DNA of 64,000 nucleotides from assembly GCA_030148665.1 (NCBI GenBank), contig JASBSZ010000006.1, positions 1-64,000 on the forward strand, given 5' to 3'. This DNA is from Alphaproteobacteria bacterium (GTDB lineage: Bacteria; Pseudomonadota; Alphaproteobacteria; Rhodobacterales; Rhodobacteraceae). The notes beneath the pieces are model-generated. The model had not been told where the DNA came from and did no database searches. It saw nothing but the letters and a program-made list of their open reading frames with translations. Both the position numbers and the translations under genes were made by a program. Below, in pieces: positions 17,182 through 50,874 of this stretch; position 1 is the first letter of the stretch; every line of letters starts with the position of its first letter.

Positions 17182-18071
17182 CCGACTATCCCCGCGACAT
17201 GATCGGCTATGGCGCCACCCCGCCCGATCCCGCCTGGCCGGATGGCGCGCGCATCGCCGTCAATTTCGTCGTCAACTACGAGGAGGGCGGCGAGAACAAC
17301 ATCCTGCATGGCGACGCGGCGTCCGAGGCGTTCCTGTCTGAAATCATTGGCGCCGACCCCTGGCCCGGCCAGCGCCACATGAACATGGAATCGATCTATG
17401 AATTCGGCTCGCGCGTGGGGTTCTGGCGCCTGCACCGCCTGTTCACCGAACGGCACATGCCGGTAACCGTGTTTGGCGTGGCGCTGGCGCTGGCACGCAA
17501 CCCGCAGGCGGTTGCCGCGATGAAGGATGCCGGCTGGGAAATCGCCACCCACGGCTATAAATGGATCGACTACCGCAATGTCCCCGAGGATGAGGAGCGC
17601 CGCCATATCGCCGAGGCCCTGCGCATCCACGAACAGGTCACCGGAGAACGCCCCGCGGGGATGTATCAGGGCCGCACATCCGAAAATACCCTGCGGCTGA
17701 CCATGGAGGCGGGCTTTGAATATTCCGCCGATAGCTATGCCGACGAGCTGCCCTATTATGTGCAGGGCCCCGATGGCCCCTTTCTGATGGTGCCCTATAC
17801 GCTGGACGCCAACGACATGCGCTTTGCCTCGCCCCAGGGGTTCAACTCGGGCGACCAGTTCTTTACCTATCTCAAGGACAGTTTCGACACGCTTTACGCC
17901 GAAGGCGGGCGCATGATGTCGGTAGGGCTGCATTGCCGCCTTGGCGGCCGCCCCGGCCGCGCCGCCGCGCTGGCGCGTTTCCTTGATTACGTGCATGGCT
18001 ACACCGACGCCTGGGTCACGACCCGTCTGAACATCGCGCGCCACTGGAAGAAATATCACCCGCCGGCATAG
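17178..18071 (+). CDS. puuE: Putative allantoinase PuuE (polysaccharide-deacetylase fold)
   Basis: A 297-residue NodB-fold protein resembling the PuuE branch. PuuE is a cofactor-independent allantoinase that opens allantoin to allantoate in purine breakdown. Visible are the N-terminal YPRDMIGYGATPPDPAWPDG, VVNYEEGGENN, then GWEIATHGYKWIDYRN and a C-terminal RLNIARHWKKYHPP. Length fits the family. It overlaps the aminotransferase stop and is followed by ureidoglycine aminohydrolase and allA genes, which supports the purine assignment. A CTTCTTC element directly follows its stop codon. Confidence 0.88.
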   Translation: MTDYPRDMIGYGATPPDPAWPDGARIAVNFVVNYEEGGENNILHGDAASEAFLSEIIGADPWPGQRHMNMESIYEFGSRVGFWRLHRLFTERHMPVTVFGVALALARNPQAVAAMKDAGWEIATHGYKWIDYRNVPEDEERRHIAEALRIHEQVTGERPAGMYQGRTSENTLRLTMEAGFEYSADSYADELPYYVQGPDGPFLMVPYTLDANDMRFASPQGFNSGDQFFTYLKDSFDTLYAEGGRMMSVGLHCRLGGRPGRAAALARFLDYVHGYTDAWVTTRLNIARHWKKYHPPA

Positions 18072-18072
18072 G

Positions 18073-18130
18073 CTTCTTCTTTGCCCAAATACGTCCGGGG
18101 GAGTCGCTCCAGCGACGGGGGCAGCGCCCC
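18073..18130 (+). repeat. CTTCTTC-type 3' element, copy c, with GC palindrome
   Basis: CTTCTTCTTTGCCCAAATAC begins two bases after the puuE stop. It is followed by GGGGGAGTCGCTCCAGCGAC and a GGGGGCAGCGCCCCC palindrome. It is the best-preserved full form of the family and may act as a 3' processing or termination element. Confidence 0.75.
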
Positions 18131-18153
18131 CAATCCCCCAGCCATCAAGCCCA

Positions 18154-18319
18154 CCAGGGGAATCGCGTTTGAAAAAACCGCGTGCTGTTTTTGACTGTTC
18201 CGCCCGGCCGACAGGCCGGGCAGCGCCCGACCCCAGGCGGGCGCTGCCCTCGACGCCTTGATCCAGGCGGTGGAACCCGTCAACTCGGCCGGCATGATCG
18301 CCAAATGCGATAGCTCAGC
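18154..18319 (-). repeat. MITE-like GC-palindromic repeat, copy 1 (full length, minus orientation)
   Basis: The element is bounded by ATCGCGTTTG (18162-18171) and CAAATGCGAT (18302-18311) as inverted ends. On the left the inverted end extends to CCAGGGGA (18154). Inside is the strong palindrome GCCCGGCCTGTCGGCCGGGC (read on the minus strand). It is collinear over its length with the opposite-orientation copy at 22837-23033. A 14-bp direct repeat CAGCCATCAAGCCC flanks it at 18139-18152 and 18316-18329. No coding potential is seen. Together with copy c above it fills the gap between puuE and allE. Confidence 0.8.
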
Positions 18320-18396
18320 CATCAAGCCCCCGCCGGCCCTTGACCTGCACACCCGATCCCGCTTTAGCTGATGCGGCCTGTTCAAGGGATAGACCC

Positions 18397-19224
18397 ATGA
18401 CCGACCCGACCTATGCCACGCCCGCCGCCGGCCTGCCCGCGCAGGATAGCCTGATGACCGGCCGCGCGGTGTTCACCGAAAGCTATGCCGTCATCCCGCG
18501 CGGGGTCATGCGTGATATCGTGACCAGCAACCTGCCGCACTGGCAGGGCGCGCGGGCCTGGATACTGGCCCGCCCCATGACCGGCTTTGCCGAGACATTC
18601 GCGCAATATATCGTCGAGCTTGCCCCCGGCGGCGGCTCGGACCGGCCCGAGCCCGATCAGGGCGCCGAGGCGGTGCTGTTCGTGACCTCGGGCAAGTTGT
18701 CGCTGGCCCTGAACGGCACGCAGCACGTGCTGAAACCGGGGGGGTATGCCTATATCCCGCCGGGGGCTGACTGGGCGGTTGCCAACAGCAGCGGTGCCGA
18801 CGCAACATTCCACTGGATCCGCAAGGCCTATGAGCCGGTCGAGGGCATCCCCGCCCCCGACGCCCTTGTCACCAACGAGGCCGACATCACCCCCACCCCC
18901 ATGCCCGACACATACGGCGCCTGGGCCACCACGCGTTTTGTCGATCCCGATGACATGCGCCACGACATGCATGTGAACATCGTCACATTTCAGCCCGGCG
19001 GCACGATCCCCTTCGAGGAAACCCATGTCATGGAACACGGGCTGTATGTGTTGCAGGGCAAGGCGGTCTACAAGCTCAACCGCGACTGGGTCGAGGTCGA
19101 GGCCGGCGATTTCATGTGGCTGCGCGCCTTTTGCCCGCAGGCCTGCTATGCGGGCGGGCAGGGGCCGTTTCGCTATCTGCTCTACAAGGACGTAAACCGC
19201 CACCCGGCGCTGAGGCTGCCATGA
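18397..19224 (+). CDS. allE: Probable (S)-ureidoglycine aminohydrolase (bicupin)
   Basis: A 275-residue two-cupin protein. It resembles the YlbA/AllE/UGHY family, which converts (S)-ureidoglycine to (S)-ureidoglycolate and ammonia with Mn. The first cupin contains EAVLFVTSGKLSLALNG and LKPGGYAYIPPG. The second contains HVNIVTFQPGGTIPFEETHV, MEHGLYVLQGKAVYKL and EAGDFMWLRAFCPQACYAGG, with His and Glu metal ligands. It overlaps the allA start by four bases (ATGA). This step sits between allantoate breakdown and ureidoglycolate lyase, matching its neighbours. Confidence 0.87.
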   Translation: MTDPTYATPAAGLPAQDSLMTGRAVFTESYAVIPRGVMRDIVTSNLPHWQGARAWILARPMTGFAETFAQYIVELAPGGGSDRPEPDQGAEAVLFVTSGKLSLALNGTQHVLKPGGYAYIPPGADWAVANSSGADATFHWIRKAYEPVEGIPAPDALVTNEADITPTPMPDTYGAWATTRFVDPDDMRHDMHVNIVTFQPGGTIPFEETHVMEHGLYVLQGKAVYKLNRDWVEVEAGDFMWLRAFCPQACYAGGQGPFRYLLYKDVNRHPALRLP

Positions 19225-19685
19225 TCCTGCACCCCGAGCCGCTGAGCGCTGCGGCCTTTGCCCCGTTCGGCGAGGTGATCGAGGCCGACCCCGCCACGGC
19301 GATCGAGATCAATGACGGCCATACCACCCGCTTTCACGCGCTTGCACGGGCAACCAGTGACGCCGATGTGATCCTGTCGATCTTTCGCGGCAGGCCCCGG
19401 CCCTTGCGCCTGTCGATGCTGGAATGTCACCCGCTGGGCAGCCAGGCCTTCATGCCGCTTGGCGGGCGCGACTGGCTGGCGGTTGTGGCCGAGCGCCCCG
19501 AACCCTCTGCCTGCCGTGCCTTTCTGTGCCGTGGCGATCAGGGGCTCAACTACCGCGCGGGCACATGGCACCACCCGCTGCTGGTGCTTGGGGATGCGCA
19601 GGATTTTCTGGTCGTTGACCGCGCCGGCCCCGGCGACAATCTGCAAGAGGTGTTTTTCGACCAGACGGTGCAGATCGAGGTCTGA
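19221..19685 (+). CDS. allA: Ureidoglycolate lyase
   Basis: This 154-residue enzyme splits ureidoglycolate into glyoxylate and urea, the last ureide step. Visible motifs are PLSAAAFAPFGEVIE, MLECHPLGSQAFMPLGG and RAGTWHHPLLVL, all typical of AllA. Its ATG overlaps the preceding stop codon. Urea released here would need urease or urea carboxylase, neither of which is in the window. A DUF1989 gene of the urea-carboxylase-associated family lies 0.7 kb downstream. The gene is convergent with apt. Confidence 0.92.
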   Translation: MILHPEPLSAAAFAPFGEVIEADPATAIEINDGHTTRFHALARATSDADVILSIFRGRPRPLRLSMLECHPLGSQAFMPLGGRDWLAVVAERPEPSACRAFLCRGDQGLNYRAGTWHHPLLVLGDAQDFLVVDRAGPGDNLQEVFFDQTVQIEV

Positions 19686-19691
19686 GCGCCC

Positions 19692-20231
19692 CTATTCCCC
19701 CTCGAAGGCACACAGCGCATGCACCTTCATGCCCAGCTTTTTCAGCCGCGCGGCCCCGCCCAGATCGGGCAGGTCGATGATGAAGGCACAGCCCACGACC
19801 TCGGCACCCGCACGCTCGATCAGGCGGATGCCGGCCTCGGCCGTGCCGCCGGTGGCCAGCAGGTCATCGACCAGCAGGATGCGCTCGCCCGGCTGTAGCA
19901 CGTCGTCATGCATCTCCATGACCGCCTCGCCATATTCCAGCTTGTATTCCTGCTCGATGGTCGAGCCCGGCAGCTTGCCCTTCTTGCGGATCGGCACAAA
20001 GCCGACCGAAAGCTGGTGCGCAATCGCACCCCCCAGGATAAAGCCCCGCGCCTCCAGCCCGGCCACCTTGTCGATGCGCTCGCCGGCATAGGGAAACAGC
20101 AGCTGATCGATGGCGGTGCGAAAGCCGCGCGCATCGGCAAACAGCGTGGTCACGTCGCGAAACATGATCCCCTTGTGGGGGAAATCGGGGATGGTGCGGA
20201 TGTAATCCTTGATGTCGCGCGATGGGGACAT
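19692..20231 (-). CDS. apt: Adenine phosphoribosyltransferase
   Basis: This 179-residue enzyme makes AMP from adenine and PRPP. The N-terminal [20 protein letters not shown], the central [16 protein letters not shown] and the PRPP-binding [20 protein letters not shown] are typical and complete. Start ATG 20231 is supported by the family N terminus. It lies about 1.7 kb from the methylthioadenosine phosphorylase gene, whose product is adenine, so the two together make an adenine salvage route. Confidence 0.96.
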
Positions 20232-20392
20232 GGTGGAACCTTGCTGTTGACCCGAGTCTGTTTTCGCCCCTTGTTAGCGAATGTGCGAACAAACGAAAAC
20301 CGCATCTCGCGGGTTTTTCAGCCCCTGCGACACAGGCGCATTGCGCGGCGCGGTGATCCGGTACAGGATCATGTGCAAACCCGAGGAAGCCC

Positions 20393-21253
20393 ATGAAAAA
20401 CGCCCCCGAAAACCCCGCCCCACCTGACGCCGACGCCCGCCGCGCGGCCCCGCCGGTGATCGCCTATCCCACCGATACCCTGCCACAGCGCCCGATCGAG
20501 GTCTTTCGCAAGGCCCGCAAGACGCTGCGCCTGCTTGAAACCGTCACCGTGCCTGCGCGCGAGGCCCGTTGTTTCCACGTCCCGCAGGGCCATTTCTTTC
20601 GCATCACCGCGCCCGAGGGGCCGCAGGTCGGCGACCTCAACCTGTGGAATGCAAACGACCTGTCCGAACGCTTCTATTCCGGCAAGACCCGCGCCCTGCA
20701 CGGCACCCACCTGTCCACCGGCGACAGCCTGTGGTCGTCATTTCCCCATCTGCGGCCGCTGGCGACCATCACCCATGACACGCTCGACTGGTACGGGTTC
20801 GACGATGACGGCGCCTCGGTCCATGACGTGATCGGCACCCGCTGCGACCCCTATACCAACGCTCTGCTGGGCGGGGGCGAATATCACCACTGCTGCCATT
20901 CCAACCTGATCCGCGCGCTGGCCGCCGAAACAGGCATGACCGACGCACAGGCCGAGGGCCATGTCCATGACGTGCTGAATGTCTTCATGTGTACGGGATT
21001 TACCCGCGACACCCACCAGTATTTCATGAAGGCCAGCCCCGTGCGCCCCGGCGACCACCTGGAATTTTTTGCCGAGATCGACCTTCTGGGTGCGCTGTCG
21101 GCCTGCCCCGGCGGGGATTGCGCAACCACCCATTCCAGCGACGCCGCCACCTGCCACCCGCTGATGGTCGAGATCTACGCCCCCGATCCGGCGGCCCTCA
21201 AAGGCTGGTCGCCGCCCCCGCCCAACAGCTACTCCCGCCGCCACCGCGACTGA
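20393..21253 (+). CDS. DUF1989 / urea carboxylase-associated family protein
   Basis: A 286-residue protein of the family annotated as urea carboxylase-associated. The core shows VPAREARCFHVPQGHFFRIT, GDLNLWNANDLSERFYSGKT, then YHHCCHSNLIRAL and FMCTGFTRDTHQYFMKASPV, with clustered Cys and His that could bind metal. The molecular role is not settled to my knowledge. GAGGAAG precedes ATG 20393. No urea carboxylase or allophanate hydrolase gene is in view, but the ureide block next door makes a link to urea or carbamoyl nitrogen plausible. It is followed by a CTTCTTC element. Confidence 0.85.
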   Translation: MKNAPENPAPPDADARRAAPPVIAYPTDTLPQRPIEVFRKARKTLRLLETVTVPAREARCFHVPQGHFFRITAPEGPQVGDLNLWNANDLSERFYSGKTRALHGTHLSTGDSLWSSFPHLRPLATITHDTLDWYGFDDDGASVHDVIGTRCDPYTNALLGGGEYHHCCHSNLIRALAAETGMTDAQAEGHVHDVLNVFMCTGFTRDTHQYFMKASPVRPGDHLEFFAEIDLLGALSACPGGDCATTHSSDAATCHPLMVEIYAPDPAALKGWSPPPPNSYSRRHRD

Positions 21254-21261
21254 GGCCCCTT

Positions 21262-21304
21262 CTTCTTCTTTGCCAAAATACTCCGGGGGTGCGGGGGCTG
21301 GCCC
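21262..21304 (+). repeat. CTTCTTC-type 3' element, copy d
   Basis: CTTCTTCTTTGCCAAAATAC begins eight bases after the DUF1989 stop and is followed by a GC-rich region with the GGGGGCTGGCCCCC palindrome. Confidence 0.75.
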
Positions 21305-21398
21305 CCGCTGGGGGCTGCGTCGCGAAACCACATGCCCGCAAGGACGCGCCAGGTGATATCATTATGTGCCAATGGGCCAACAAACAGGGAAGCGACGG

Positions 21399-21854
21399 AT
21401 GACAAGCGAATTCGACCTGCAACGATTCATCGACGCCCAGGACCCCGTCTATGACACCGTGCTGCACGAGCTGAAAACCGGCCGCAAGCGCAGCCACTGG
21501 ATGTGGTTCATCTTTCCCCAGCTGGTGGGCCTGGGGCACAGCGCGAACGCCGCCTTTTACGGCATTTCAGGCAAGGCCGAGGCCAGCGCCTACATGGCGC
21601 ACCCGGTGCTGGGGCCGCGTCTGGTCGAATGTACCCGTCTGGTGATGAGGGCGGCCAGAACCTGGCACGAGGTCGAGGCGATCTTCGGCCGGCCCGACGA
21701 TCTCAAGTTCCAGTCATCCATCACCCTGTTTTCACGCGCCAGGCCGACCGATCCGGTCTTTGCCGAGGCGCTGGATCAGATCTATGGCGGCGTCGGCTGC
21801 ACGGTGACACTGGAAAAGCTGCGCATCGCCTTTATCGAGGGGCTTGACGAATAG
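21399..21854 (+). CDS. DUF1810 family protein
   Basis: A 151-residue protein matching the DUF1810 family (YfkK/calpastatin-like annotation in older records). It shows FDLQRFIDAQDPVYDTVLHE, KRSHWMWFIFPQLVGLGHS and a C-terminal LDQIYGGVGCTVTLEKLRI. Biochemical function is unknown. The start ATG 21399 is chosen from the family N terminus and a GGGAAG site upstream. It is convergent with the methylthioadenosine phosphorylase gene. Confidence 0.88.
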   Translation: MTSEFDLQRFIDAQDPVYDTVLHELKTGRKRSHWMWFIFPQLVGLGHSANAAFYGISGKAEASAYMAHPVLGPRLVECTRLVMRAARTWHEVEAIFGRPDDLKFQSSITLFSRARPTDPVFAEALDQIYGGVGCTVTLEKLRIAFIEGLDE

Positions 21855-21889
21855 CGCCCCCCGAATCCCGGACCGGATTCCACCCCCGG

Positions 21890-22762
21890 CTACAGCACCC
21901 GCCCCGCCACCGCATCAAGCCGTGCCAGGGCCGCGGGGTCGCGGGCGTCAGGTGCGGTGATGATGGCGTATTCCAGCGCCCGGTCACAGCCATGCGCGCA
22001 GGTTTCACGCGTCTTGCCCAGCAGATCGGACAGGCGACGGACAAGGCCGCGTGCCTTGCCGGCATTGCCCATCAGGGTTTCGATGATCTTTGTCACATCG
22101 ACCTCGCCATGATCGGGGTGCCAGCTGTCGTAATCGGTGATCATGGCAATGGTGGCATAGCAGATTTCCGCCTCGCGGGCGAGCTTGGCCTCGGGCATCC
22201 CCGTCATGCCGATCACATCGGCCCCCCAGACCTCGCGATACAGGCGGCTTTCGGCCAGGGTTGAAAATTGAGGCCCCTCCATCGCCAGATAGGTGCCGCC
22301 GCGATGCACGATGATGCCTTCCTCACGCGCCGCCTCATATGCCGCGTCGCGCAGGCGGGCGCAGGTCGGATGCGCGACCGAAACATGGGCCACGCAGCCG
22401 GGGCCGAAAAAGCTGCTTTCGCGCCCTTTGGTGTTGTCGATGAACTGGTCCACGATGACGAAATCGCCCGGCGCCATTTCATCGCGGAACGACCCGCAGG
22501 CGGAAACCGAAAACAGATCGGTCACGCCCAGCCGTTTCAGCGCGTCGATATTGGCGCGATAGTTGATGGACGAGGGGGTTTGCACGTGACCCCGCCCGTG
22601 CCGCGGCAGAAACGCCATCTTCACGCCATCCAGCCGCCCGGTCAGGATTTCGTCGGATGGCTTGCCCCACGGGGTTTCAACCGCCTGCCAGCGGGCGTCT
22701 TGCAGCCCCTCGATGTCGTAGATGCCCGAGCCGCCGATGATGCCGATGACTGTTTCGCCCAA
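21890..22762 (-). CDS. mtnP: S-methyl-5'-thioadenosine phosphorylase
   Basis: This 290-residue purine nucleoside phosphorylase splits methylthioadenosine, a by-product of polyamine synthesis, into adenine and methylthioribose-1-phosphate. Visible are IGIIGGSGIYDIEGL, SVSACGSFRDEMAPGDFVIV, MEGPQFSTLAESRLY and IGMTGMPEAKLAREAEICYA. The start is a TTG at 22762, supported by GGAGGG about eight bases upstream; I see no suitable ATG. Adenine would pass to Apt, encoded nearby. No other methionine-salvage genes are in the window. Confidence 0.94.
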   Translation of the reverse strand: MGETVIGIIGGSGIYDIEGLQDARWQAVETPWGKPSDEILTGRLDGVKMAFLPRHGRGHVQTPSSINYRANIDALKRLGVTDLFSVSACGSFRDEMAPGDFVIVDQFIDNTKGRESSFFGPGCVAHVSVAHPTCARLRDAAYEAAREEGIIVHRGGTYLAMEGPQFSTLAESRLYREVWGADVIGMTGMPEAKLAREAEICYATIAMITDYDSWHPDHGEVDVTKIIETLMGNAGKARGLVRRLSDLLGKTRETCAHGCDRALEYAIITAPDARDPAALARLDAVAGRVL

Positions 22763-22836
22763 TTTTCTGCCCTCCTGTGACTTGCACGCAGTCTGGCAAT
22801 TTCGCGCCCGGATGAAAAGCGCCGATCGCGCGTCGG

Positions 22837-23033
22837 CCAGGGCGATCGCATTTGATGGCCATGCCGGCCGAATTGCCGGGTTTTACCGCCTGAATCAAGG
22901 TGTCGAGGGCGGCGCCCGGCCCGAGGTGGGCGCAAAAGCGCCCGCCTGGGAGGCGGGGCGGGCGCTGCCCGGCCTGTCGGCCGGGCGGAACAGTCGAAAA
23001 CGGCACGCGGTTTTTCAAATGCGATTCCCCTGG
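22837..23033 (+). repeat. MITE-like GC-palindromic repeat, copy 2 (full length, plus orientation)
   Basis: The element begins CCAGGGCGATCGCATTTG (22837-22854) and ends CAAATGCGATTCCCCTGG (23016-23033), an 18-bp terminal inverted repeat with two mismatches. The interior contains GCCCGGCCTGTCGGCCGGGC and is homologous throughout to copy 1 at 18154-18319 in the other direction. It carries a small extra inverted segment (GGGCGCAAAAGCGCCC). It occupies most of the gap between mtnP and the SulP gene; the remainder holds nothing recognised. Confidence 0.82.
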
Positions 23034-23080
23034 CGCCCCGACGGCCCCGGCCATGACGTCAGGGAATACCGGCCCCGCAT

Positions 23081-24805: not shown

Positions 24806-24935
24806 TTTGCCGGCGCGATTGCCACAAAAGCAGGTTTGCGCCCGCCCAGGGGGGCGGGTCGGGCGCTGCCCGGCCTGTCGGCCGGGCGTAAAGGGTGGAA
24901 AACTGCGGGACATGGCTGAAATGCGATTGCCCTGG
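24806..24935 (+). repeat. MITE-like GC-palindromic repeat, copy 3 (degenerate left end)
   Basis: The core GGGCGCTGCCCGGCCTGTCG and the right end AAATGCGATTGCCCTGG (24919-24935) match copies 1 and 2. The left part differs. It lies between the SulP gene and the flavin reductase-like gene. Confidence 0.7.
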
Positions 24936-34769: not shown

Positions 34770-34890
34770 GCATTTGCGGGTGTCGCCCGGCGGAAACGCC
34801 GGGCAGTGCCCGCACCGCCCCCCACCGGGGCGGGCACTTCGGCCCACCCCGTGCGGCGCGGGCGCTGCCCTCAACTCGCGACGGAAATCG
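34770..34890. repeat. MITE-like GC-palindromic repeat, partial copy 4
   Basis: The gap between phnX and the EamA gene contains GCCCGGCGGAAACGCCGGGC and CGGGCGCTGCCCTCAACTCG. These resemble the palindromic core and flank of copies 1, 2 and 5. The terminal ATCGCATTTG motifs are not clear here. Confidence 0.5.
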
Positions 34891-50714: not shown

Positions 50715-50759
50715 AACGGCAGACACGCCTGGCGCCGGGTGCATCATGCCACAGATTCA

Positions 50760-50874
50760 ATAGACAGGCGGGCGCTTCGGCGCCCACCCCGGGCCGGGCA
50801 CTGCCCTCAACTCCAGAAGGCGGCCGGTAAAAGGCGACATGGGTCGAAACAAGGATCCAAATGCGATTACCCTG
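50760..50874 (+). repeat. MITE-like GC-palindromic repeat, copy 5
   Basis: Contains GGGCGCTTCGGCGCCC, then CCGGGCACTGCCCTCAACTC, and ends CAAATGCGATTACCCTG (50858-50874). That end matches the right ends of copies 2 and 3. The left end is not clear. It lies upstream of rpmI. Confidence 0.65.

Follow-up and report, generated by a model that had tools for sequence, protein, structure and literature searches.

A family of miniature transposable elements with ISAs1-type ends and a palindromic core targeted by IS110 in a Rhodobacteraceae genome

The first 64,000 nucleotides of contig JASBSZ010000006.1 from an alphaproteobacterium of the Rhodobacteraceae (assembly GCA_030148665.1), hereafter the window, carry a purine/allantoin gene block (allE-allA-apt-DUF1989-DUF1810-mtnP) enclosed by two inversely oriented repeats 4.7 kb apart, copy A on the minus strand and copy B on the plus strand. 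The initial annotation described them as opposed, nearly full-length copies of one repeat resembling a miniature inverted-repeat transposable element (MITE), a description borne out by alignment, by shared ends, and by counts of the exact terminal inverted repeat (TIR). Our analysis makes it very probable that both are ISAs1-type MITE insertions carrying an older hairpin core, the apex of which is targeted by an insertion sequence (IS) of the IS110 family. The source genome (G000) is a 2.77-Mb assembly of 48 contigs, 94% complete; copy counts for it come from fetched loci, in which IS110 DNA was also read rather than searched for across the whole genome. Three of the genomes compared (G001, G004, and G008) belong to the same genus.

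Members of the family have ends of the form CAGGG...CCCTG and share the TIR CAGGGnnATCGCATTT. Among 61 genomes, the exact TIR occurs 11 times in the source genome (the backwards control, 0), three times each in G004 and G008, once in G060, and in none of the other 57. Aligned with short flanks, A and B have a mean column identity of 81%; A has lost the core apex (a 32-column gap) and its far end is degraded. A copy at another site in G008 (locus L039) shares 97% identity with B. A BLAST search of the source genome with copy B returned 60 matches at E<=10, including core-only matches and alignments of the palindrome with its own complement. A profile built from seven full or near-full copies (five from the source genome and two from G008) and run on 64 overlapping fetched loci of the source genome identified at least one MITE end at 22 distinct loci and both ends at eight of these, a count that omits two weaker partial matches. 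The 195-bp element encodes no transposase, and open reading frames (ORFs) crossing the copies are mechanical only. Between positions 18050 and 23150, scans returned no promoter-like sites and five terminator-like sites, in both cases about as in shuffled sequence.

A and B are genuine MITEs and recent, lineage-specific insertions, each inserted independently. B is absent from both G008 and G001, and in both the alignments of its two flanks overlap by exactly 10 bases: the empty site reads GCGCGTCGGC in G008, the same as the left duplication of B, and GCGCCCCGGC in G001, which agrees with the right duplication GCGCCCCGAC at 9 of 10 positions. The target duplications sought in the initial annotation exist, and at B they are a precise 10 bp in two relatives. 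A is likewise absent from G008 and G001; its flank alignments overlap by 17 bases in G008, which has a single CAGCCATCAAGCCC where the window has one on either side of the element. Elsewhere in the family, the duplications agree at 10/10 positions at L161 and L005 and at 9/10 at L011 (7/10 at B), and at 10/10 for the IS at L190; the 42 mismatched flank pairings used as a control reach at most 7.

The ends of ISAs1-family elements begin with CAGGG, and these elements duplicate 8-10 bp of target. A scan of 394 genomes of the bacterial family found the exact TIR in 23, the reversed control being seen in one, and was the only source of ISAs1 elements with exact ends. In G271 a single gene lies between an inverted pair of exact TIRs (1232 bp), and the element has a perfect 10-bp duplication; in G164 a corresponding pair encloses one gene (1234 bp), with no duplication; a third element, in G213 (1221 bp), has one end with one mismatch and no evident duplication. 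The ORFs of all three are ISAs1-family transposases, scoring 292.3, 385.7, and 292.9 bits, respectively, on model NF033564 (cut-off 70 bits). G353 has 32 TIR hits, and two of three TIR loci fetched from it join N- or C-terminal ISAs1 coding sequence at contig ends. In G001, two ISAs1 pieces at contig ends, taken as one element, have ends that are related to these without being identical (CACGGnAATCGCTTGAA), and their duplication agrees at 10/10 positions. The PF13808 loci (L151-L159; source genome and 40 others) showed no CAGGG-type inverted pair. The initial annotation is right that the repeats are MITE-like and would, if mobile, need a transposase from elsewhere: they have TIRs, 10-bp duplications, and sites empty in two relatives, and three ISAs1 elements with matching ends are present in relatives.

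Two further observations concern ISAs1-like ends in the genus. The G001 pieces (contigs C111 and C92; loci L151 and L288) lie, as judged by eye, no more than 3 bp from the site corresponding to the half-MITE at 50.8 kb of the window (about position 50870); an ISAs1 element and a MITE in one intergenic gap hint at a shared target preference. In G004, three exact TIRs (L160, L163, and L166) adjoin contig ends or a run of N, a placement as expected, judging from these sequences, for a longer multi-copy element that has these ends and may have escaped assembly.

Inside the MITE ends lies an 84-bp GC core that is present without them across the bacterial family. Copy B has matches in 27 of 37 genomes of the family and in 1 of 24 others, and outside G000 and G008 all matches listed fall in the core region (query 63-160). 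In an alignment of 31 cores drawn from several genera, which leaves out four partial cores, four near-duplicates, and L017 with its disrupted second hairpin, the long helix is 96.2% paired, slid controls reaching at most 46.6%; 9 of its 16 pairs are changed on both sides, and none of 500 shuffles was as good. When 12 core-only loci of the source genome were compared with eight loci of relatives, one proved orthologous to a G005 locus (94% identity over 3 kb) and a second had flanks 67-69% identical to a G001 locus. At least some cores are therefore older than insertions A and B.

The core is also where an IS110 element lands. Locus L150 contains a complete element of 1106 bp with two junctions, whose ORF scores 187.7 bits on NF033542 (cut-off 140) and has the PF02371 and PF01548 domains of a DEDD/Transposase_20 recombinase. 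All 15 IS110 junctions seen (eight left and seven right; 13 plus the two of L150) are at the core apex, in loci fetched for their MITE or core content and hence not an unbiased census. Ten of them lie near contig ends, and contig ends recur within MITEs and cores. A PF02371 search of the source genome found four places, of which only L150 is this element; the other three have no AGCGCCCGCC within the fetched loci.

The AGCGCCCGCC motif belongs to the 159-nt leader of the element, which has a predicted fold with z of -2.65 and probably encodes a bridge RNA. In bridge RNAs, the target loop precedes the donor loop. The left guide core of this leader, GCGCCCGCC, is present at all eight left junctions; the leader segment CCCCGTCCCTTGG pairs with the right junctions at 13 of 13 positions in L003 (three of them wobbles) and at 12 of 13 in L021 and L265; and the words ACAGTTGC and GACAGG correspond to the two ends of the element. 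None of 20,000 mononucleotide shuffles contains the four words GCGCCCGCC, CCCTTGG, ACAGTTGC, and GACAGG in that order. The strand logic of these guides is that described for IS621 (PMC11208160). On this model, the leader RNA would be made and would guide insertion.

Several observations weigh against the reading of A and B as ISAs1-type MITEs with an RNA-guided IS110 target. The MITE and the autonomous elements are similar only over their terminal 14-19 bp. No PF13808 or ISAs1 protein match was found in the source genome, a 94%-complete assembly from which multi-copy ISs may be missing, so present mobility is unproven. Not every duplication has the expected form: the repeat flanking A is 14 bp rather than 10, L039 agrees at 3/10 in the 10-bp frame, reaching 9/9 by eye only when the frame is moved by one base, L200 has none (4/10), and none is evident at L181. 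For IS110, copies elsewhere could have been missed, since the junction loci were fetched for MITE or core content. In the leader, CCCCGTCCCTTGG pairs at only 10 of 13 positions with L024, L026, L261, and L150, leaving three mismatches at four of the seven right junctions, and two of six right-target strings find their longest unbroken pairing elsewhere in the leader. The comparison of the four guide words with shuffles is a guide and not a test because the words were picked after looking; singly, GCGCCCGCC, CCCTTGG, ACAGTTGC, and GACAGG arose in 101, 441, 42, and 756 of the 20,000 shuffles, respectively.

Three other explanations were weighed. The placement of A and B suggested in the initial annotation that the intervening genes could flip, homologous recombination between the copies acting as an inversion switch. 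The copies are inverted, their BLAST match has 75% identity, and their longest identical stretch is 37 bp; against this, the segment has the window orientation relative to both flanks in G001 and in the covered parts of G008, both of which are without these MITEs. In G001, contig C90 covers 15.7-20.0 kb and contig C63 covers 20.0-29.7 kb, both in the window orientation and with neither MITE, and the two meet inside apt, unjoined in that assembly. At the level of assemblies, in which isomers at low frequency could go unseen, G000, G001, and, where covered, G008 all show one orientation, and since G001 is colinear without either MITE the window most likely has the ancestral order. With identity limited to 37 bp, inversion is not supported and is highly improbable. 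A single composite transposon with A and B at its ends, which brought in the purine/allantoin genes, would account for similar elements flanking a gene block, but A and B are each flanked by a separate duplication and each have a separate empty site; the chance of it is negligible, and it is refuted by G001, which has the genes in that position but neither MITE.

A third explanation takes the repeats for a conserved structured RNA, or for a repetitive extragenic palindromic sequence (REP) spread by a REP-associated tyrosine transposase (RAYT), kept at fixed loci. The core does fold and covary, and one or two of the 12 core-only loci compared look orthologous; Y1 transposases were found in 10 of 41 genomes, four of which (G005, G007, G009, and G024) are family members with the core. 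A and B, on the other hand, occupy sites that are empty in relatives, the window has no Rfam match at gathering thresholds, and no Y1 transposase was found in the source genome or in G012, G019, and G021 (7, 10, and 8 core matches, respectively). A RAYT was rejected as the origin of the core for want of a Y1 match in the source genome. As an account of the repeats, this explanation is very unlikely: the fixed-locus RNA that the initial annotation named as an alternative fails for copies A and B, with their empty sites; the inner core, however, is an old structured repeat.

The partial copies that the initial annotation placed at 24.8, 34.8, and 50.8 kb are real and consist, respectively, of a right half, a core alone, and a left half joined to an IS110 end (Table 1). 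At the 24.8-kb site, G001 has 18 bases where the window has 84; as G008 has a complete MITE there with a 10/10 duplication, the window lineage most likely lost the other half by deletion. A diverged further copy lies just beyond the window, its core matching at 64157-64240 of the contig.

Table 1. MITE, core, and IS110 features in the window
Feature	Position	Strand	Evidence
Left 14-bp direct repeat flanking A, CAGCCATCAAGCCC	18139..18152	+	Sequence; single copy at the empty site of G008
MITE copy A (subtype 1)	18155..18315 (far end approximate)	-	Alignment; empty sites in G008 (L231) and G001 (L228)
Right 14-bp direct repeat flanking A, CAGCCATCAAGCCC	18316..18329	+	Sequence; single copy at the empty site of G008
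Left target duplication of B, GCGCGTCGGC	22828..22837	+	Identical to the empty site of G008
MITE copy B (subtype 1), full length, 195 bp, CAGGGCGATCGCATTTG...CAAATGCGATTCCCCTG	22838..23032	+	Alignment, BLAST
Palindromic core in B, apex GCGCCCGCCT/GGGAGGCGGGG, counterpart of the IS110 site	22904..22989	+	
Right target duplication of B, GCGCCCCGAC	23033..23042	+	7/10 to left copy; 9/10 to the empty site of G001, GCGCCCCGGC
Right half of subtype-2 MITE	24838..24935	+	Complete in G008 (L161) with 10/10 duplication
Core-only copy without MITE ends	34784..34877	-	Genome match and sequence
34-bp IS110 left-end remnant (97%) joined to half-MITE	50733..50766	-	
Left half of subtype-2 MITE, cut at core apex	50767..50874	-	

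Other repeats were seen beside these elements. A stretch next to the complete IS110 element (L150:1890-2007) resembles a third MITE subtype and has four longer matches in G008. At L010 (1461-1738), the inverted repeat continues outside the MITE ends, with GGATATTGCCCGGGG on one side and its complement on the other, and a second, weak partial copy lies just upstream. Locus L162 of G060, from another family of the class, has an exact TIR and several TIR-like words within about 300 bp, an arrangement suggesting that related MITEs may occur outside the bacterial family. A terminator-like repeat at 18072-18131 of the window (TTCTTCTTTGCCCAAATACGTCCGGGGG...) recurs in at least 28 other places in the source genome, a lower bound because 32 candidates were scored per genome, and in many places in G008 and G001.

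Prokaryotic MITEs such as MITEPye1 of Paracoccus yeei, of IS1182 type, are alike in small size, TIRs, and target duplications, and they also lack a transposase gene, are intergenic, can fold, and are inferred to be mobilised in trans (PMC11578231; PMC10969869); truncated MITE copies are there said to resemble REPs (PMC10969869). The present element differs from those compared in having ends and a 10-bp duplication that match ISAs1 and in bearing a widespread palindrome targeted by a second transposon. With ISAs1-family ISs (NF033564) it shares the same 16-bp ends and, in the exact-end element of G271, the 10-bp duplication; unlike them it has no transposase, and its similarity to the elements compared is confined to the terminal 14-19 bp. 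Insertion of IS110 elements into REP palindromes has long been known (PMC1525189), and IS621, ISPpu9, ISPpu10, ISPa11, and ISRm19, at REPs or bacterial interspersed mosaic elements, likewise use one fixed position of a palindrome, apparently guided by a leader RNA (PMC1525189; PMC11208160). In contrast to those cases, the source genome has no RAYT match, and the palindrome also travels inside a transposing MITE. As an ISAs1-type MITE family this one is new; elements of its kind are known, but its cargo, a site at which another transposon lands, is unusual. Among the papers listed by searches of an open-access library, none was seen to describe an ISAs1-type MITE, the core, or a MITE as an IS110 target.

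From the ends, the duplications, and the autonomous elements of relatives, we infer which transposase moved A and B. A non-autonomous MITE of about 195 bp would be recognised in trans at its 16-bp ends by an ISAs1-family transposase, which would generate the 10-bp target duplications. The MITE would carry with it an older, family-wide hairpin repeat, and the resident IS110 would target the apex of that hairpin, probably via a bridge RNA encoded in its leader. Transposition of the MITE would in this way spread IS110 landing sites, and insertion of IS110 followed by deletion would leave half-MITEs. A three-layered coupling, in which the MITE seeds IS110 landing sites and so offers fresh intergenic targets, IS110 halves the MITE, and two unrelated transposition systems share one palindrome, is a tentative proposal and somewhat doubtful as a whole; any benefit to either element would likewise be a matter of inference.

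Opposed repeats around a gene block, as in this genome, need no inversion to explain them, and IS110 at contig ends helps to explain why this assembly breaks at these repeats. The core apex offers a natural target on which a new predicted bridge RNA can be tested. A single 195-bp sequence links an old palindrome, recent jumps of a MITE, and landings of IS110 as ordered events.

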